A model generated the notes under the pieces. That model was given only the letters and a program-made list of their open reading frames with translations. It did no database searches and was not told where the DNA came from. Source: Hyphomicrobiaceae bacterium (lineage in GTDB: Bacteria; Pseudomonadota; Alphaproteobacteria; Rhizobiales; Hyphomicrobiaceae). From it: a stretch of 64,000 nucleotides of DNA. The DNA is taken from the NCBI GenBank assembly GCA_021775735.1, contig JAJFHG010000047.1, positions 1-64,000 of the forward strand, read 5' to 3'. The position numbers and the translations under genes are program-made. Positions 1 to 8,202 of the stretch are shown one piece after another. The stretch's first letter is position 1, and each line of letters starts with the position of its first letter.

Positions 1-1
1 G

Positions 2-736
2 GGCGATAGGATAGTCGTTTTTCACGGAGGGCCTGGGTTTAGTCATGATTATCTGGTGCCGCATCTTTCATTTCTGTCTGACGACCACCAGGTCATTTTT
101 TTTGATCAGTATGGTTGCGGTAGAACGGCTTGTTCCTCCGGTGATTTGACATTCAATTCGCTTTCATCTCATGCCGCTGGCATTCTTTCTCACTTTCAAA
201 GCGACAACGAGATCCGAATTATTGCTCACTCATTTGGTGTTGCTGTGCTTCTTGGAGCATTGTCGCAGCTTCCCGAATTGCAAGTGACTGGATTGCTCTT
301 AAATGCTGTCCCCACCAACAAGTATCGTTTCGATCTAATGAGAAACGATTTATTCACCCGTATGGGCCCCGACGTTGCAGCAGCTCTGCCAGCTGCGGCT
401 GAGACAGGACTTGATCAAGAACAGCTATTAAACCTCCTACAGTTTTACATTTCACCTGACAGTACACCCAATCTTGCTCGTCTCACTTTTGATTTCCAGG
501 TCTACAATCGCGTCTATGAAACGCTAAATCATTTTGATGTGTCTGACTGTGCGTCTCGTTTGAAAAACTGCAACCTCGTGCTTGGAGCAGATGATTTCAT
601 TGCACCTAATTTGATAGCGGACATTGTTAGATCATGCAGATCCACAACAACCCTGACGTCAGCAGGCCACTTTTCATTTGCCGAACAACCAGAGGCATTT
701 CGCGCGGTTGCATGCAATGTTTTCAATCGTGATTAG
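2..736 (+). CDS. Alpha/beta hydrolase (proline iminopeptidase-like), 5'-truncated by window edge
   Basis: The reading frame is open from base 2, so the true start lies outside the window; the first in-window start (GTG at 56) would remove the oxyanion-hole motif. Visible are HGGPG (oxyanion hole), DQYGCGRT (the family's DQRGxGxS), the nucleophile elbow AHSFG with its Ser, a late acidic residue in LGADDFIAP, and the C-terminal catalytic His in SAGHFSF. This order is that of alpha/beta hydrolases related to prolyl iminopeptidases. The usual cap is present but poorly conserved, so the substrate is unknown; these enzymes hydrolyse amides, esters or lactones. It converges on the minus-strand operon, its last 4 bases overlapping the 71-residue gene. 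Confidence 0.85.
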   Translation, partial: GDRIVVFHGGPGFSHDYLVPHLSFLSDDHQVIFFDQYGCGRTACSSGDLTFNSLSSHAAGILSHFQSDNEIRIIAHSFGVAVLLGALSQLPELQVTGLLLNAVPTNKYRFDLMRNDLFTRMGPDVAAALPAAAETGLDQEQLLNLLQFYISPDSTPNLARLTFDFQVYNRVYETLNHFDVSDCASRLKNCNLVLGADDFIAPNLIADIVRSCRSTTTLTSAGHFSFAEQPEAFRAVACNVFNRD

Positions 737-948
737 GCATCGTCTGCGCCCTGTCTGGATCTGGCCATTTTCTCCACAATGTCGAAGATTTTGTCGTTAA
801 GAACAGTGCGTCGATCTTCGTTCAGTGACGACGCAATGATTTGTGTCGCTCTCGCAAGATGTTCTGAAGCATCCGCATAGCCAAGGCGGGCAGCTTCGGT
901 TTGAACGTAGAGGAGTGCGCGCAGCAAGTTTCCGCTATCTGACAACAT
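733..948 (-). CDS. Small conserved-looking helical protein, last gene of the GNAT operon
   Basis: This encodes 71 residues with no recognised family. The composition (Ala, Leu, charged residues, no Cys or Trp) suggests an all-helical soluble protein without signal peptide. The ATG at 948 overlaps the end of the isochorismatase-like gene by 14 bases and a purine-rich AAGGAAAG lies upstream, so translational coupling is likely. The position as third cistron of an overlapping operon is the main support that it is real. It may be an accessory or regulatory subunit of the two enzymes upstream, but that is inference from position only. Confidence 0.6.
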   Translation of the reverse strand: MLSDSGNLLRALLYVQTEAARLGYADASEHLARATQIIASSLNEDRRTVLNDKIFDIVEKMARSRQGADDA

Positions 949-1555
949 GATAACTTTCTTTCCTTGAGAGGTGCACCTGGGGAGCCGAGGAAAATTCGGC
1001 CAAAACTTCGCTGGTTGTCATCGTCTTTGCGAATATGGAAATGAAGAACGAAGTTAGTTTTTGAACTTCAACTTCCGACTTGCCATTATGACCATGGCTA
1101 GCAGAAGCATCATCGACGAAAACAAAAGAATGTTGATTTGGCACGCCGTCCAGGATCGTTGATAGGCAGGCAACTGCCCCGGTAAATCCTGCAATGATAA
1201 CGCTACCTGACCGCGCGCTTTGCATCATCGTTGAAAACTCTGATGAGGCGTAACAGGATGGCCACTGCCTTTCAAAGACCATGTCAGAAGCGGTAGGCTT
1301 CAAGCCATCAATCCAATCAGAAAAATCACCGGACCGATTGAAAATATTTGTGCCTTGTTGCCAGCGCATGAATGCAACAGGAATCTTTTCTCTACGGGCG
1401 CAGTTCAAAAGGCGTTTACAGTTTCTCACAGCCTCTGGCGCGGTCTCAAGTCCGAGTGGACGATGCTCACAAACGTACTCGCGCTGCAGATCCACCAACA
1501 CAAGTGTAGGAATGTCTTTTCGGCCCGTAAATGCATGAATATTTGTGTGTGTCAT
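935..1555 (-). CDS. Isochorismatase-like cysteine hydrolase
   Basis: This 206-residue protein belongs to the isochorismatase-like fold, whose members hydrolyse amides (nicotinamidase, N-carbamoyl amidases) or the isochorismate vinyl ether. The first catalytic residue is the Asp of LVLVDLQREY near residue 22. The nucleophile is the Cys of GFTGAVACLST near residue 130, preceded by the usual Gly-rich cis-peptide segment. The catalytic Lys normally found in between (EK-R-SAF region) is not obvious: the corresponding stretch reads VFERQWPSCYASSEF, with Arg or Gln in its place. Its ATG overlaps the stop of the upstream acyltransferase by 4 bases, so the two products are probably made together. Substrate unknown. 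Confidence 0.82.
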   Translation of the reverse strand: MTHTNIHAFTGRKDIPTLVLVDLQREYVCEHRPLGLETAPEAVRNCKRLLNCARREKIPVAFMRWQQGTNIFNRSGDFSDWIDGLKPTASDMVFERQWPSCYASSEFSTMMQSARSGSVIIAGFTGAVACLSTILDGVPNQHSFVFVDDASASHGHNGKSEVEVQKLTSFFISIFAKTMTTSEVLAEFSSAPQVHLSRKESYHVVR

Positions 1556-2829
1556 GCTCGTGCTGCCTGCTGAATAAGGGGTGAAATATTATTGTCGACA
1601 CATGGACGGAACCGAGACGCTTCCAAAACACCCGGATTATCCCAATCACCTTCACGTCTGAGTAGAACGTAAGGATCTATTCCGATCGTTATTGGCGCCT
1701 TATGAGAATCGAGCGTTGCATGCATCTCGGCATATCGGTGGTCAGAGAAAACAAACGACCGGTATTTTTCTGCTAGTCCAAAACCAAATTTTTTCCAGAA
1801 ATCGACTTTGTCGATACGTGCGTGAGCGCAGAGCTTTGTATATCCTTTGGCATTGCATAGATCTGATGCATAGCGAACAAGATCACGCGCCAAGCCAAGG
1901 TTTCGAAACTCTGAGCGGACGGCTAAGCGCTCAAACTTTGCAAATTCGGCGAAGTAACGAATGCGGAGGCAGCCCGCTGGCTCCGTTCCTATGCGACCCA
2001 AAATATGCGTGCATGAAAAATCATTATCGTCGAACTCTTCGTTGAACGGACATTTCTCATCTCCCATATAGACGACCGAACGAATTGACATGGCCTGCAT
2101 GAACTCCTGCATGTCATGCACGACGTTTACGATCGGTTGGGATTGAGTTGGCCCATCAGATTGGTCAAGAAAACTCAATTCTCTTTTGTTTGATCCACTG
2201 CGATCCCGTAGCTGAGCTGGGCGTTCTGTCCTACGAAAATGGTGAAATGTCAGCTCATTCGCTTCGGTCTCTTTGGTAAAGCCGAGAGCGGTGAGAAATT
2301 TTTCACCTTCTGGAGTTGCAGCGCGGGCTATAAAATCAGTGGACTGATAATTTGGCGACTTCAACTTGTCCATAACCAGAGCCAACGCAGGTGTTATGGC
2401 GCCACGTGCATGCAAGGCCCAAACATAGATGGCAGCTGGCGGCTCATGCTGCCCTGCAATAAACCGGAAATCAGGGCTGCCAGGGTCTAGGGCTCCAGAC
2501 AGCAATGCAGCGCGGCCTTGTTGATTAAGCATAAGAAAGGCCACAAATCCGAGCGGGTCGTCCGCCGCCATGCTGTTTGTCTGCGCGCGACGCCCTATGC
2601 CCCAAAAACAGTCAGGATTATTGGCCACAACCGATAAAATCGTTTCGGTGGCAGCCTTTAGTGGGATATCGGCCTGTGCTCGCTCGATGAGATGGCGGAT
2701 CTGGGTGGGTGCCGGGGTGAAGACTTTTAGCCGGGCACAGACACGCTCCATCTGCAGGTGATCCAGATTTCGAACACCTCTCACCGGCTTTTTGACCCGA
2801 AACCCCTGCTGTTGACTATGAATTGACAT
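1552..2829 (-). CDS. Tandem GNAT-like acyltransferase, first gene of operon
   Basis: The 425-residue protein appears to contain two GNAT-like halves. The N-terminal half (about residues 20-190) ends in ATPEGEKFLTALGF, a typical GNAT C-terminal strand, but has no clear acetyl-CoA loop. The C-terminal half (about 235-365) is a more regular GNAT domain with FERLAVRSEFRNLGLA (motif A, R-x-x-G-x-A) and VDFWKKFGFGLA. The remaining 60 residues are unassigned. No signal peptide or membrane segment. It starts the operon with the isochorismatase and the 71-residue protein and is divergent, across 74 bases, from a LysR gene that probably controls it. Acyl donor and acceptor are unknown. N-acyl-homoserine-lactone synthases share the fold, but I do not see their conserved residues. 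Confidence 0.75.
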   Translation of the reverse strand: MSIHSQQQGFRVKKPVRGVRNLDHLQMERVCARLKVFTPAPTQIRHLIERAQADIPLKAATETILSVVANNPDCFWGIGRRAQTNSMAADDPLGFVAFLMLNQQGRAALLSGALDPGSPDFRFIAGQHEPPAAIYVWALHARGAITPALALVMDKLKSPNYQSTDFIARAATPEGEKFLTALGFTKETEANELTFHHFRRTERPAQLRDRSGSNKRELSFLDQSDGPTQSQPIVNVVHDMQEFMQAMSIRSVVYMGDEKCPFNEEFDDNDFSCTHILGRIGTEPAGCLRIRYFAEFAKFERLAVRSEFRNLGLARDLVRYASDLCNAKGYTKLCAHARIDKVDFWKKFGFGLAEKYRSFVFSDHRYAEMHATLDSHKAPITIGIDPYVLLRREGDWDNPGVLEASRFRPCVDNNISPLIQQAARA

Positions 2830-2903
2830 CCGAAAGAAACCTTCGCATCACTGAAAAAGTCATGTATTTGTGAACAAAGCCTATCTGAAAGAACGCCAAA
2901 GCG

Positions 2904-3944
2904 ATGCCCAAGTTTCGTAGTCAGTCCGTTCCTTATTCGGAACACCCAGAGATCGACATTTTGCCAGATCTCAACTGGGAAGATCTTCGAATCTTTTTGG
3001 TTGTCGCTCGCCATCGTAGCTTCCGCTCTGCCGCAGAAGAGCTCGGACTGGCGCTCAACACGGTACGACGCCATATCGACAACCTTGAACACAGCGCCAA
3101 TTGCGTCGTTCTTGCCCGCAACCCGAAGGGTGTGACTTTGACGCAAGCGGGAAGCGAGTTGTTTGACAAGGCGTTGCCGATGCTTGACATAGCAAGAGGG
3201 GCTGCCAATATTGGGCGCCAACCACAACATGAGATTAGTGGAACGGTTAGAATATCTATAACTGAAGGGCTTGGGACGTTTTGGCTTATTCCGCAACTGG
3301 TCCGTTTCCAGCGCGCCAATCCTAAACTTCTTCTTGAAACCAATTCGACGTTTCGCGAACCAGACCTCACGACCATGGAGGCAGACGTCGCAGTTCATTT
3401 GAAAAAGCCGCGACAGGCTGACGTCAAAACGGTTAAACTTGGAACGATGCATGTGATGCCGTACGCATCACCGGATTATATTAAAACATTTGGAGTCCCA
3501 AAAACGATTAAAGACATTGAAAACCATAAAATTGTCGAGCAACTCTCTCCGCAACTGGATGTCTCAGCTGTGGGTCGACTATTTCCAGAGAAGGATCGCG
3601 CTGGTTTTGTAGCATTCTCCACAAACACGAGCACCAGCCATTTTTGGTGCGTCGTGCGCGGCGGCGGACTAGGCATGTTGCCGACCTATCTTTCTCCGCT
3701 TGGGGCGAGAATTGTACCAATTGACATTCCGGAGATGAGAATTGCACACGAAATTTGGCTATCATACCACCCAGACAGTAAGCGCGCGCGCGCAGTGGCA
3801 CGCGTGATTGAATCTATCAGGAAGTCTTTCAAATCTGATCTCTACCCGTGGTTTAAAGATCAGTTTGTGCATCCCAATGAGCTCCTTCAAATGGAAAGAA
3901 AAATTTCCGATGAATTGAGCTTTGCAAGTCTCGTAGCTCAGTAG
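2904..3944 (+). CDS. LysR-family transcriptional regulator
   Basis: The 346-residue protein has a winged helix-turn-helix at about residues 25-85 (RIFLVVARHRSFRSAAEELG, then NTVRRHIDNLE and the wing ending TLTQAG), followed by a periplasmic-binding-protein-like effector domain (from about 110, GTVRISITEG onward). It carries roughly 20 extra residues before the HTH and a long C-terminal tail, so it is longer than the usual 290-320. It is transcribed away from the tandem-GNAT operon with only 74 bases between the start codons, the classic arrangement for a LysR protein regulating its neighbour. Effector unknown; a product or substrate of the acyltransferase/hydrolase pair is a reasonable guess. 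Confidence 0.9.
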   Translation: MPKFRSQSVPYSEHPEIDILPDLNWEDLRIFLVVARHRSFRSAAEELGLALNTVRRHIDNLEHSANCVVLARNPKGVTLTQAGSELFDKALPMLDIARGAANIGRQPQHEISGTVRISITEGLGTFWLIPQLVRFQRANPKLLLETNSTFREPDLTTMEADVAVHLKKPRQADVKTVKLGTMHVMPYASPDYIKTFGVPKTIKDIENHKIVEQLSPQLDVSAVGRLFPEKDRAGFVAFSTNTSTSHFWCVVRGGGLGMLPTYLSPLGARIVPIDIPEMRIAHEIWLSYHPDSKRARAVARVIESIRKSFKSDLYPWFKDQFVHPNELLQMERKISDELSFASLVAQ

Positions 3945-4098
3945 AATGTACAGTTGCCTTTTTAAAAGATACTGTTACTCAATAATGTACCGTGGGTGCT
4001 ATAAATACGGGTGAATTGTCGATGAAAGCGTCAATAAATTATACGCTGTTTAACAATCGCTTGGGCCGGGAATGAAAAGGCTTTGAAGGAGGTCTCAA

Positions 4099-4635
4099 TT
4101 GTTGTTTGAACCACAAGAGCGCGTCGTCCTTTTTGTCGACGGAGCTAATTTGGCGGCAACGTCTCGGGCACTTCAATTCAATATTGATTTTCGACAACTA
4201 CTTGCGCTCTTTCAACGTAAATCACTTCTTGTTCGTGCCCTCTATTACACAGCAATTTCGGAAGACTCATCGATACAACCTTTGGTCGACTGGCTTGATT
4301 ATAATGGTTACTCGGTCGTAACCAAGGCGGCCAAAGAGTATGTTGACGCATCAGGCCAAAACAGAATCAAGGGCAATATGAATGTCGAACTCGCCGTCGA
4401 CGCCATGCAAATTGCCCCCTGCATTGATCACATTGTATTGTTTAGTGGGAATGGGGAATTCAGCTCTCTTGTGACGGCACTCCAACGTATTGGAAAGCGC
4501 GTATCAGTCGTTTCAACATTACAAACAGAATTTGCCATGGTGTCTGATGACTTGCGCCGTGTGGCAGACCAATTTATTGATCTCGCTGACCTTGAATCGG
4601 AGCTGACTCGCGACCGAGAAGAGACAAAGGCATAG
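4099..4635 (+). CDS. NYN-domain (LabA/DUF88-like) protein with substituted acidic residues
   Basis: The 178-residue protein is a stand-alone NYN domain, the PIN-like RNase fold typified by LabA. FVDGAN (Asp14) is the first metal-binding motif, and KGNMNVELAVDAM (91-103) and LFSGNGEFSSL (114-124) are the second and third. From what I know of alphaproteobacterial relatives these normally read NMDIELAVDAM and SGDGDF. Here Asp95 is Asn, Asp118 is Asn and Asp120 is Glu, leaving Asp14 and Asp101. The start is TTG at 4099, chosen because a perfect AAGGAGG lies 6-12 bases upstream and no ATG fits. It may be an inactive, RNA-binding relative of the nuclease. Confidence 0.85.
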   Translation: MLFEPQERVVLFVDGANLAATSRALQFNIDFRQLLALFQRKSLLVRALYYTAISEDSSIQPLVDWLDYNGYSVVTKAAKEYVDASGQNRIKGNMNVELAVDAMQIAPCIDHIVLFSGNGEFSSLVTALQRIGKRVSVVSTLQTEFAMVSDDLRRVADQFIDLADLESELTRDREETKA

Positions 4636-4948
4636 ACTGATTTTACACAACTACAAAGCGGTCTCGTTGTGGCCTTGAGCGGGCGCGAACTCAACACAAT
4701 GTGAAATTGGTGCGGGTGCCACAAGGGCGCGGTCAACAGCCGTTGGTAATCCTGCTCAGTCCACTGGAATTGAAGCAACCTCTGTTGGTCAAGCTGTAAA
4801 CGCTGCCAACATGGTTGCAACCGGTAGAAAATGAGCCACCGGACAAACGACCGAAACCTGCGCAAATCAAGCGTAAGAAAATGTAGGGCTGTACCCGGGT
4901 GCTTCGCTTAATTCTCAGAGATGTCAGCTCTGAATGAGCGAGGCATAA
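4636..4948. other. Intergenic stretch without recognised gene
   Basis: Between the NYN gene and the convergent lipoprotein gene I see no start codon with a ribosome-binding site leading to a plausible protein. A 145-residue frame on the minus strand runs into the NYN gene and has a composition typical of antisense frames. No U-rich terminator hairpin was recognised. Confidence 0.4.
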
Positions 4949-5446
4949 TTAATATCCATTGCTGTGAGTTGTGGATTGGATAGTGAGTGTAAAGCTACGT
5001 GTCACGGGAGGGTCACCCGTCGTGGTCGCGGTGATTGAAAACTGATCGCTACCCGTTTGGTCTTTACGCGCTGTGTAATAAATGCCGGTCCCGTATAAAT
5101 TCTGGCCAATGCACTTTCCCGAACTGCTTTGCATAATTTTTGTCATTTGATTGGGGCGGAACGTCACTGTTCCTTTGCTGGGTGGCTTGGCAATGGTGAA
5201 TGTTGGTGTGATGGGTGTGCAATCATCGGGATTAAATCCAACCCAGATGTACATTCGCGCTGGTCGTTCCGCGATAACGGGCGTGCGCCGTGTCAATGGC
5301 GCGTTGGCACCATCCAATTGTGCGCTTGTTTCAGTTTTAGATGTCGGGGTTGATGAGCATCCGGCAATGAAACACGCGCAAACGAGTGCCGTTCGCAAAC
5401 TAAGGCGTTTGTTTGTCCGTACGATGTCGAGGTGCAAGGGTGCCAA
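4949..5446 (-). CDS. Predicted lipoprotein with a beta-sandwich-like domain
   Basis: The 165-residue protein begins with a basic N-region, a hydrophobic core and the lipobox FIAGC near residue 29, followed by SSTPTS, so it is probably a lipid-anchored envelope protein. The mature part contains IAKPPSKGTVTFRP and GTGIYYTARKDQTGSDQFS, the pattern of bacterial Ig-like/cadherin-like repeats (GTV.....YTP..G..GSD.F). Two cysteines (DDCTP and GKCIG) could form a disulfide. The start is TTG at 5446 with GGAAAGA just upstream. No partner gene adjoins it. Function unknown; a surface or periplasmic binding role is only a guess. Confidence 0.75.
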   Translation of the reverse strand: MAPLHLDIVRTNKRLSLRTALVCACFIAGCSSTPTSKTETSAQLDGANAPLTRRTPVIAERPARMYIWVGFNPDDCTPITPTFTIAKPPSKGTVTFRPNQMTKIMQSSSGKCIGQNLYGTGIYYTARKDQTGSDQFSITATTTGDPPVTRSFTLTIQSTTHSNGY

Positions 5447-5548
5447 TCTTTCCAGTTATCCTGCTGGATGTTTCACTTATGCCCTGAGAGGCGTACCAAT
5501 TCTTCATGGCAAAACATAGATTGGGTCAGGGTCGTTGGTCGTCCGCCC

Positions 5549-5842
5549 TTAGAAATCAGGGTTGCAGAACGGTGAGGCAAGTGAAAACGGGTCGCGTTCT
5601 GTGTGTTGGGCATCACAGTCGTTGTCTGCCGTGCGCGTGGAAATTTGAGCTGGGCGATCATAGTCGCTGCGGCGTATAGCAAGTGGGTCGACGGAAATCA
5701 TTTGGTTGAGCGGCACAGCAGCACGCATAACGGTCATGTGGTTGAGCATAACGGTCTCCATCCAGAGGCGTTGGTCGTTCAGAGCAATTTCTGAAACGCG
5801 GGTATGGACGGTATATGCTGCTTTCTGCTTGATTGCTGTCAC
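5549..5842 (-). CDS. Possible small protein, weakly supported
   Basis: An open frame of 97 residues from GTG at 5842 fills the gap between the lipoprotein and the DUF1801 gene on the same strand. Its composition is not extreme and it contains a hydrophilic, Asp/Arg-rich C-terminal half ending SPFCNPDF. There is no clear ribosome-binding site before the GTG, no recognised domain, and other frames overlap it. It could be a real lineage-specific protein or chance. If it is not coding, the stretch 5447-5890 is intergenic. Confidence 0.3.
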   Translation of the reverse strand: MTAIKQKAAYTVHTRVSEIALNDQRLWMETVMLNHMTVMRAAVPLNQMISVDPLAIRRSDYDRPAQISTRTADNDCDAQHTERDPFSLASPFCNPDF

Positions 5843-5890
5843 GCAGGAAACAGGCCTTCAAAATTGTCTGATTGTTCTCAAAGCTGAAGC

Positions 5891-6325
5891 TCAGCTGTCC
5901 CACGTCTGGTAGTTCGCGCGCATATAAGTTAGCCCTTCCAAGACAATTTCCTCCAGAACGTCGAGATCTATATCGTCGAGCTTATTGATATAGAGGCAAC
6001 TTTTTCCGATTTTGTGTTTGCCGAGGCGCGCAAGATTTTCTGACATATCCCGGTATCCGGGCATTACGTAAATCGTCAGGGCTGTTTTGCGTGGGCTAAA
6101 TCCTGTCAGGAAAAACTCACCTTCGCGGCCGCTGTCATATTTGTAATGATAACGGCCGTAACCAATCATGCTGGAACCCCACATTTTAGGTTTTAGGCTG
6201 GTGACTTGATTGAAAAATGGCAGCAAAGCGAGGCCGTCTGCGCGCCGTTTCGGATGGTCTACCGACCTGAGGAACGCACGCGGTGACAGCTTTGTTGGTT
6301 TCGTCTTGTTGGTCGACTTTGCCAT
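5891..6325 (-). CDS. DUF1801 (YdhG-like) protein
   Basis: The 144-residue protein matches the DUF1801 fold: after a Lys-rich N-terminus come RRADGLALLPFFNQVT, MWGSSMIGYGRYHYKYDSG, a short strand ALTIYVMPGY and the C-terminal KSCLYINKLDDIDLDVLEE. The family (PF08818) has a YdhG-like fold and no assigned biochemical function. The length is normal for the stand-alone family. It is monocistronic as far as the sequence shows. Confidence 0.85.
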   Translation of the reverse strand: MAKSTNKTKPTKLSPRAFLRSVDHPKRRADGLALLPFFNQVTSLKPKMWGSSMIGYGRYHYKYDSGREGEFFLTGFSPRKTALTIYVMPGYRDMSENLARLGKHKIGKSCLYINKLDDIDLDVLEEIVLEGLTYMRANYQTWDS

Positions 6326-6456
6326 GCCAGATCATCATCACTAACGTCGATGACTTCAATATAGCAAATAGACCGGGCGAGGTGTAGGGGCGCAGGTGTG
6401 TTTGTCATATGCTCGCGGTCAACCTTTGCTGCGCGCGACACGAGCTCTGGGGACGG

Positions 6457-7335
6457 TTAGGCGCTGTATCCGAAGGCACTGAGATCGGATTGATGGCGTT
6501 CAGCAAGACTGCGCAAAACGTTATTGCCGCGATAACTATAGGCGCGTGAGGCTACAAGTTTTGTAACGGCCCGCTCGACCGCAGCGCGGTCGGCCTCGAC
6601 ACCGATGAAATTTAAAACCTGCTCAATATGTGGGACCGGCTGCTCTAAAAAGGCTTCGTATTGCAAGACAAGTGCGCGCTCACCGAGCTGGTTGGCATAG
6701 CGGTCGGCTGTTTCAGTGTAGCTTTTCCAAAGTGCGACGCCTTCGTTGGTATCGCGACACCGTGAAAAGGAATTATTTGAGAGTGGCAAACGCCACAACC
6801 AGCGACTTTGATTTTTTACTGTGCTACCGAGCGATTTTGAAATCTTGTCCGCGCGTGTTGCCAGGCTATTGGCAACATCAACGCCATGGCGATGGATGAC
6901 GAGTAGTTTGGCATTAGGAAAGATCTTCAGCCATAGAGGAAGCGTGAATGTATTGCGTGGATCCTTCCAACCCCAGGGTTCTGACATATATTTGATGTCA
7001 CCGAGCGTGAGGTAGTTTCTAAGTCCCAGGAACTCGATCGCGCGGGGTGTTTTAAGTAAATGCTCGAGCTGGCGAACGCGCGCCTCAACGAGGTCTCCAT
7101 ACTCAAGAAAGTCTTCAAAAGCCTCTGGGCGGTCCCATGTCGCTCCAGCTTGACGCAGAAGCCAATTGTTCAAGTGTACAAAGAACGTCGCTTCGTGGTT
7201 GGAATCAAGTTTCCTGCCAACGAACAATCCCAGTTCGTCCAAAATTGTGGTTAGCACGCTGGTGCCGGAGCGGTGCATGCCGGCGATGATAATTGGAGCG
7301 CTGGGTATGGACGCATTTGAAGGTAGTGGAGACAT
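6457..7335 (-). CDS. Sulfotransferase-family protein
   Basis: A protein of about 292 residues with the P-loop-like PAPS-binding motif IIIAGMHRSGTSVLTTI near the N-terminus, the acceptor/dimer region WGWKDPRNTFTLPLW, and the 3'-phosphate-binding segment LLVIHRHGVDVANSLATR (R and S conserved). These are hallmarks of bacterial sulfotransferases that move a sulfo group from PAPS to carbohydrate, lipid or peptide. No signal peptide or membrane span, so it is probably cytoplasmic. I chose the ATG at 7335, 14 residues inside a longer TTG-started frame, because similarity begins just after it. Acceptor unknown; no sugar or lipid genes adjoin it. Confidence 0.82.
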   Translation of the reverse strand: MSPLPSNASIPSAPIIIAGMHRSGTSVLTTILDELGLFVGRKLDSNHEATFFVHLNNWLLRQAGATWDRPEAFEDFLEYGDLVEARVRQLEHLLKTPRAIEFLGLRNYLTLGDIKYMSEPWGWKDPRNTFTLPLWLKIFPNAKLLVIHRHGVDVANSLATRADKISKSLGSTVKNQSRWLWRLPLSNNSFSRCRDTNEGVALWKSYTETADRYANQLGERALVLQYEAFLEQPVPHIEQVLNFIGVEADRAAVERAVTKLVASRAYSYRGNNVLRSLAERHQSDLSAFGYSA

Positions 7336-7478
7336 GACAAGAGGCTCGGACTGTTGGGCAAAGATACGAGCCAAGATGTTAGTTGGTGAACGTTACTCCC
7401 GCCTTAACCATCGGCGGACTTGTGTGGATCAAAGGGCCAAAAAACCACTGAAAAACTAAGCAGAATGATTATTTTTGA

Positions 7479-7925
7479 TTAAGCGCGGAGGCTGGCTTGC
7501 ACAGCATGCTCAAGGGCTTCCAAAAAGCGTGACCGGTCGCGGCGGCCAAAGGCAGCGTTGTAGCCTTTGCTTTCTCCCGTCTCTCTGAGATGTGCCGACA
7601 AATCACGCATTGCGAGCGCCATGCCGATACTCTGTTCTGTGAACGGTTTTCCAGTGGGGCCGAGCACCTGAGCGTTTTGCTTAAGACACCGCGCTGCAAG
7701 TGGAATATCTGCAGTGACCGCAATGTCGTGTGGACCTATGTGATCGGCAATCCAATCATCAGCAGCATCCGGGCCATCGCTTACAACAACACGGTGAACA
7801 CGCTCGCTTGTCTCCAGGCGCATCCAACTGTTGGAGACAAAATAGATCTCAAGTTTGTGGCGATGAGCGACCTTCAGCGCCTCATCTTTCACCGGGCAGG
7901 CATCAGCATCAATGTATATCGTCAA
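7479..7925 (-). CDS. yaiI: UPF0178 (YaiI/YqxD, DUF188) protein
   Basis: The protein is about 148 residues with the family signature TIYIDADACPVKDEALKVA at its start, SDGPDAADDWIADHI in the middle and DIAVTADIPLAARCL, followed by NAAFGRRDRSRFLEALE. UPF0178 has a PIN-like fold with clustered acidic residues, which suggests a nuclease, but its role is not established. The family usually begins directly at this DADACPVK strand, so I place the start at the in-frame TTG at 7925; a TTG at 7943 would add six residues. It lies alone between the sulfotransferase and a divergent secreted protein gene. Confidence 0.88.
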   Translation of the reverse strand: MTIYIDADACPVKDEALKVAHRHKLEIYFVSNSWMRLETSERVHRVVVSDGPDAADDWIADHIGPHDIAVTADIPLAARCLKQNAQVLGPTGKPFTEQSIGMALAMRDLSAHLRETGESKGYNAAFGRRDRSRFLEALEHAVQASLRA

Positions 7926-8202
7926 CGGGATCTCTTGTTCCAAAGGGTGCAGACAAATGGAGTTTTAATGCGGGTCAGCGTCATCCAAAAACGCGCCACA
8001 ATTCTGTTTGCCACGTTTTTCAGTGAGTTGCCAACAGGTTGCTATGGTGTAACGAGCTGCGTTGTGTCGTGTGGAAAAATCAGAACCCTCACCAATTGAG
8101 AATTCAGCTAACATTCATATCAACATCTGTCTTATAATGGGAGGTGAGGATCAATCGCTTATGGTATCGGGGCTGGATGCCAGACTTGGAAGAGGAAAGA
8201 CG

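Follow-up and report, generated by a model that had tools for sequence, protein, structure and literature searches.

A fused double-GNAT protein, an isochorismatase-fold protein and a small companion protein are encoded by one operon, divergent from the gene of a LysR-type regulator, near the start of the 64,000-nucleotide stretch that we analyzed (hereafter the window; Hyphomicrobiaceae bacterium, assembly GCA_021775735.1, contig JAJFHG010000047.1, positions 1 to 64,000). This cassette is a real, recurrent gene unit across Hyphomicrobiales. As for its role, we tentatively favor the reading that it is a LysR-linked, apparently horizontally gained cassette that makes and turns over an acylated small molecule. 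The three-gene operon occupies positions 733-2829 of the minus strand, with overlaps of 14 bases (935-948) and 4 bases (1552-1555), and the gene of an alpha/beta hydrolase converges on it, overlapping the gene of the 71-residue protein by 4 bases. The open reading frames agreed with an initial annotation of this DNA on the gene positions, both overlaps, the divergent LysR and the convergent hydrolase. That annotation had further proposed an acyltransferase with two GNAT domains, a hydrolase acting on the transferred product and a LysR sensor: the two GNAT folds and the conserved trio with LysR stood, and the hydrolase role of the 206-residue protein was not supported as worded. The features of the locus are as follows:

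1-736, plus strand: alpha/beta hydrolase, S33/proline-iminopeptidase-like (Pfam and motifs; 5' end on contig C17)
733-948, minus strand: small protein of 71 residues (open reading frame; position in relatives)
935-1555, minus strand: isochorismatase-fold protein of 206 residues (Pfam, alignment, active-site residues)
1552-2829, minus strand: fused double-GNAT protein of 425 residues (open reading frame, Pfam, AlphaFold, structure search)
2215-2751, minus strand: GNAT-N domain, residues 27-205 (predicted GNAT fold; no Pfam family; degenerate P-loop ARGAITPAL)
2149-2214, minus strand: linker, residues 206-227, disordered in the AlphaFold model and site of the gene boundary in most relatives
1597-2148, minus strand: GNAT-C domain, residues 228-411, YjcF/SACOL1063/ElaA-like (P-loop RNLGLA at 1888-1905; C-terminal extension)
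2830-2903, no strand: divergent intergenic region of 74 bases between operon and lysR (no convincing palindrome)
2904-3944, plus strand: LysR-type regulator of 346 residues (Pfam; full-length relation to the cassette LysR of relatives)

A search with a profile of the C-terminal half (E <= 1e-15) found relatives in 71 of the 397 genomes sampled from the order and in 33 of the 385 from the class, some of them distant, and all 15 genomes matched in a phylum-wide sample were Alphaproteobacteria. A family profile succeeded where a first contig scan of genomes with the window protein alone gave no match. Among 125 loci, a sample rich in Bradyrhizobium in which some genomes are represented twice, 87 present a LysR gene divergent from GNAT-N, GNAT-C and isochorismatase-like genes as separate genes, and 11 present the same layout with a fused double GNAT, so that 98 have the full layout. 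The others lack the isochorismatase-like gene (11 loci, 6 fused and 5 separate), have LysR and GNAT-C with no recognized GNAT-N (11 loci) or have no recognized LysR nearby (5 loci), LysR being adjacent in 120. In 45 more varied loci, all four parts were present in 20 and LysR in 40. Also, of the 58 matches of a GNAT-N profile in these 397 genomes, 55 directly adjoin a GNAT-C match. Thus the initial annotation was right to treat the trio and LysR as belonging together, and GNAT-N was not found loose in these genomes. The remaining three GNAT-N matches (loci L217, L218 and L219, all of family f33) lie divergent beside the same kind of LysR gene, followed by an alpha/beta hydrolase gene. These f33 loci look like a minimal module of GNAT-N, LysR and alpha/beta hydrolase, with neither GNAT-C nor the isochorismatase-like gene. 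Each of the folds concerned is very common on its own, which speaks for a chance neighborhood of ordinary genes; such a neighborhood is nevertheless extremely improbable, as it is contradicted by a gene order and orientation that many genera share and by the linkage counted over whole genomes.

The carriers include Bradyrhizobium, Methylobacterium, Bauldia, Tepidamorphus, Microvirga, Alsobacter and many uncultured Hyphomicrobiales, and many of these bacteria live with plants. The literature searched contained no description of the cassette, nor any named pathway of this composition, of which the initial annotation knew none either. A gene order and orientation kept across the first four genera and the uncultured members without such a description points to an unrecognized metabolite or signal. 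With one operon, one regulator and culturable carriers, the cassette also constitutes a concretely testable module. In the window genome, the larger cassette genes have a guanine-plus-cytosine (GC) content of 0.448-0.505, compared with 0.516 +/- 0.017 for 47 open reading frames of the window; the alpha/beta hydrolase, isochorismatase-like and methyltransferase genes (the last described below) deviate clearly and the GNAT gene slightly. Among 103 genomes of the window's family, there was one other match, weak and partial (E 1e-23 vs 1e-85). Horizontal gain is apparently the simplest reading of the lower GC content and of this near-sole occurrence in the family.

The 425-residue protein is by prediction two GNAT folds in one chain, as the initial annotation had supposed. 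AlphaFold, run with 48 rows of full-length relatives and separate halves, gave a predicted local distance difference test (pLDDT) score of 85, with confident domains at residues 27-205 and 228-411. For the whole model, the predicted template modeling score was 0.52 and the linker 206-227 was disordered, which bears on any interdomain sheet, on an active site at the interface and on the packing of the domains. In the structure search, GNAT-C matched SACOL1063 (5jph; Z 22.6, root mean square deviation (rmsd) 1.4 A, 141 residues) and YjcF (1q2y; Z 21.6). Sequence matches to both entries had E 3e-18, and the Pfam match to Acetyltransf_1 (8e-10, 39.4 bits) was above the gathering cut-off of 20.7. 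The closest matches of GNAT-C in sequence and structure are therefore the single GNATs YjcF, SACOL1063 and ElaA (1q2y, 5jph, 5z6n), from which it differs by its C-terminal extension, its GNAT-N partner and, in most members, an Arg for the P-loop Gly. The GNAT-N half folded alone gave a pLDDT of 85 and matched 7uci (Z 12.6, 2.8 A, 157 residues), 4pv6 (Z 12.4) and 1ib1 (Z 12.3). This half had no Pfam match at gathering level and no match to a Pfam GNAT family at E <= 1; among 28 GNAT-N members, the sole GNAT-family match was FR47, in 2 of them (best E 0.034). Profile comparison of GNAT-N with GNAT-C showed no similarity (hhalign probability 0.9%), and a recent duplication of GNAT-C as the origin of GNAT-N was rejected on that ground. 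A GNAT-like decarboxylase of the CurA, SxtA or GphF kind was also considered for GNAT-N; the Z values are tied, which leaves these indistinguishable from other GNATs.

Since the halves are separate neighboring genes in most relatives, we regard the window protein as a natural fusion, and one that hints at which two proteins work as a pair. On the GNAT-C tree, the fusion history takes 4 changes, of which at least 2 are forced by well-supported branches, the tree having long branches and weak support. Another route to a GNAT pair is seen in locus L097 (5506-6713), where a tandem pair of GNAT-C copies lies beside LysR without GNAT-N. Two GNAT folds per chain are also found in MshD, Eis, N-myristoyltransferase, HisAT/NAT16 and the tandem GNAT of the clavulanic pathway. 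Unlike these enzymes, the cassette has its halves mostly in separate genes, in an operon that also encodes an isochorismatase-fold protein and lies beside LysR, and its two halves bear no detectable relation to each other by sequence profile. We do not claim that the protein belongs to any of the known families of double-GNAT enzymes; the absence of MshD, Eis and N-myristoyltransferase among the 50 structural matches listed for the whole model carries no weight here.

In GNAT-C of the window, RNLGLA (residues 309-314) fits the canonical GNAT P-loop Q/R-x-x-G-x-G/A (PMC4964394). Across the 125 loci, the first-helix Arg is invariant (125), each of E, D, N and D in EEFDxND is kept in 120-124, the His in 122, and the E-R pair is likewise preserved (E 123, R 125); the C-terminal extension carries the motif DPYxLxRxEGxWDxPG. 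By contrast with this consensus, ARGAITPAL of GNAT-N fails the P-loop pattern, and the P-loop is not conserved among 110 GNAT-N members, in 109 of which Tyr135 and Trp137 are kept. Because the coenzyme A (CoA) loop of GNAT-N is broken, one catalytic and one partner domain appear likelier than two acyltransferases. Double-GNAT enzymes typically have one active domain, which is the C-terminal one in MshD (PMC4964394, PMC12219266).

The 206-residue protein belongs to Pfam Isochorismatase (PF00857; 4e-18, 66.5 bits, above the cut-off of 27) and shares its fold with 4h17, 8cib, 3irv and the EntB/PhzD isochorismatases. We placed its nucleophile position by alignment to 3irv and by the known cysteine-hydrolase motif. 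In the window protein, Asp22 of the Asp-Lys-Cys triad is kept, Arg96 stands at the Lys position and Ala129 at the nucleophile position, with Cys130 adjoining. The same holds in the family (n = 101): Asp is kept in 95, but the Lys position is His in 60, Arg in 33 and Lys in 4, whereas 60 members have Thr, 18 Ala, 16 Ser and only 1 Cys at the nucleophile position, so that the triad of the isochorismatase-fold cysteine hydrolases fails in nearly all members. In the printed alignment, a Ser likewise takes the Cys position in 4h17 and 8cib, the closest sequences with a solved structure. Judged from these residues, the label "hydrolase" is doubtful for this protein. Hydrolysis of the transferred product, with which it had been credited, would more likely be the task of the alpha/beta hydrolase, whose Ser-Asp-His motifs are kept. 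In locus L009, which has no isochorismatase-like gene, a gene of the ornithine cyclodeaminase/mu-crystallin family (6166-7122) follows GNAT-C.

At many loci, a protein of 55-100 residues with the helical pattern L..L..Y...EA...LG...LS.LL..A..E is encoded behind the last core gene. A profile built from five hand-picked members, including the 71-residue protein of the window (for which Pfam gave no match at gathering level), matched non-seed loci at the same position (L113 2e-7, L081 8e-7, L107 3e-5, L085 0.003), with no match better than E 1 elsewhere. In a leave-one-out profile, the window protein scored just E 0.43; by position and pattern, it is probably a diverged member of this small helical family. 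Further companion-like proteins were seen at L107 (5220-5429 and 5422-5730), L088 (3674-3853), L191 (6601-6864) and L095 (4638-4886); two of them are in tandem, one lies behind LysR and one, on an Aureimonas plasmid, follows GNAT-C. We consider the companion-like proteins an alphaproteobacterial family of small proteins that has no name as yet. A GNAT toxin-antitoxin system of the TacT/AtaT type was also considered and rejected, as the GNAT is double and another gene separates it from the small protein, for which no DNA-binding family gave a match. PADLOC gave no match for the four proteins.

The degenerate active sites of GNAT-N and of the isochorismatase-like protein, together with a small helical partner, would suit a cassette in which GNAT-N and GNAT-C acylate a protein, perhaps LysR itself, the other components being binding partners or pseudoenzymes. 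To our knowledge, no small-molecule substrate is established for ElaA/YjcF-type GNATs, which also speaks for a protein target. We nevertheless regard protein or regulator modification as unlikely: a methyltransferase, an S33-like hydrolase with intact triad and an outer-membrane barrel recur with the cassette and argue for a small molecule.

These accessory genes are met at the edge of the window. The alpha/beta hydrolase matches Abhydrolase_6 in Pfam (4e-11) and has HGGPG at 23, the Ser elbow AHSFG at 224, the Asp in GADDF at 584 and the His in AGHFSF at 662. The window starts at base 1 of its contig (C42), which cuts the gene there. Window positions 1-141 are identical to the end bases 12129-12269 of contig C17 (loci L193 and L194), with no other copy in the genome, and on C17 the frame stays open upstream, reaching candidate start codons. 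The two contigs are thus probably adjacent, judging by this overlap, and split the hydrolase gene between them. The next genes on C17 are:

C17 11189-12097, minus strand: S-adenosylmethionine-dependent methyltransferase, next gene past the alpha/beta hydrolase
C17 10051-11118, minus strand: Phenol_MetA_deg outer-membrane barrel, beyond the methyltransferase

The best genome-wide match to this methyltransferase falls inside the cassette locus in six other genomes (G108, G188, G198, G222, G384 and G234), and the barrel protein is cassette-linked in three of them (G198, G108 and G222). Homologs of the alpha/beta hydrolase are rare, with 0-2 in each genome, and one lies within the cassette locus in G198, G234 and G108, which bears out the tie to the operon suggested by the initial annotation: in some lineages, the hydrolase is part of the unit. 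The extra genes beside the window operon match those of L079 and L080. With the S33 proline-iminopeptidase-like hydrolases, the window protein has in common HGGPG and the Ser-Asp-His motifs, and NCBIfam proline iminopeptidase models match it; however, it scores far below their equivalog cut-offs (for TIGR01250, 19.2 bits vs 167.65, the protein being cut at its N-terminus), and it is linked to the cassette and not to peptide use.

From gene content, conservation, linkage, active-site residues and predicted folds, we infer the chemical steps and the control by LysR as follows. GNAT-C, with its canonical CoA loop in the window, would acylate an amine or a similar acceptor. GNAT-N would be a degenerate GNAT that pairs with GNAT-C, to which it is fused here while forming a subunit of its own in most species, and would contribute to binding the acyl donor or the acceptor. 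The isochorismatase-fold protein, without a cysteine nucleophile, may modify or bind an intermediate by Asp chemistry instead of working as a cysteine hydrolase. In the extended form, the methyltransferase would methylate, the barrel export or import, and the alpha/beta hydrolase cleave the product. LysR, in which both LysR-type domains are present (HTH_1 2e-15, N-terminal; LysR_substrate 8e-21, C-terminal), would sense the pathway product or another metabolite of the pathway and switch the divergent operon. A small, rather hydrophobic molecule is favored over a protein target because the extended form includes a methyltransferase and an outer-membrane barrel besides a hydrolase that appears intact. 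Several observations weigh against an acylated small molecule made in this way. The P-loop Gly of GNAT-C is Arg in 95 of the 125 loci, so that the donor may be something other than CoA, or these proteins may fall outside the classical acyltransferases. The methyltransferase and barrel sit on another contig, joined by the 141-base overlap alone. Most cassettes (Bradyrhizobium, Methylobacterium) do without the accessory genes, so that the core function cannot depend on them. Also, a search for a LysR operator palindrome in 33 intergenic regions found no shared motif, the best repeats in most of these regions being within shuffled expectation. One seemingly shared operator motif was rejected, as it proved to be coding sequence of the LysR N-terminus.

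The same parts could serve detoxification, in which the GNAT would acetylate a toxic amine (a drug or a compound from plants or microbes) sensed by LysR and the hydrolases would cleave it, with nothing synthesized for itself. GNATs that modify antibiotics or amines are common, GNAT-C weakly matches aminoglycoside and streptothricin acetyltransferases, the distribution is horizontal and patchy, and an outer-membrane barrel fits uptake or efflux. However, the matches to resistance models lie far under curated cut-offs (18 bits vs 140), GNAT-C is nearest to YjcF/SACOL1063/ElaA and not to resistance enzymes, and a single copy in very many Bradyrhizobium genomes is unlike a typical resistance cassette. 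A resistance role is thus possible, and somewhat doubtful. We lean to a product made for use over neutralization because the cassette is frequent in Bradyrhizobium and does not resemble resistance enzymes.

Signaling would be a further use of an acylated product. FeeM and LuxI, both acyltransferases related to GNATs, produce small signals or lipids, and GNAT-C could be a synthase of this kind, with LysR as receptor and the alpha/beta hydrolase and isochorismatase-like protein for turnover. Weak FeeM matches were found in 23 of 27 GNAT-C members and matches to Autoind_synth, the LuxI family (PF00765), in 3 (best E 0.033); the structure search also matched FeeM (2g0b, Z 16.0, rmsd 3.0), and the P-loop Gly of CoA binding is lost in most members. 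Nevertheless, the window protein itself matches neither LuxI nor FeeM (PF21926, no match at E <= 1; the relative shown had 16.5 bits vs a cut-off of 27), the YjcF-type structural matches are much better (Z 22.6), and many unrelated GNATs reach about Z 16. LuxI systems pair with LuxR-type receptors, not LysR-type ones. A LuxI/FeeM-like synthase appears unlikely on balance. A broader proposal, quite improbable at present, is a new class of LysR-type chemical signaling in Alphaproteobacteria, in which a GNAT-N/GNAT-C synthase would make an acylated signal (methylated in some lineages) for a LysR receptor, at a level tuned by the S33-like hydrolase and the Cys-less isochorismatase-fold protein; if true, Bradyrhizobium and Methylobacterium would carry this circuit. 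The nitrogen-starvation GNAT family of MSMEG_0567/Sll0786 (TIGR04045) was a separate candidate and was rejected (19.9 bits vs 68.45, below cut-off).

Some minor features were recorded around the cassettes. A regulator gene of the XRE helix-turn-helix type, a common type, lies near about 12 of them (L083, L084, L086, L088, L090, L105, L120, L131, L141, L147, L079 and L080). Rfam gave no match on window positions 1-8000. A predicted lipoprotein-like protein of 165 residues, without Pfam match, is encoded at 4949-5446, and an NYN-domain protein (PF01936, 1.6e-33), at 4099-4635, adjoins LysR.

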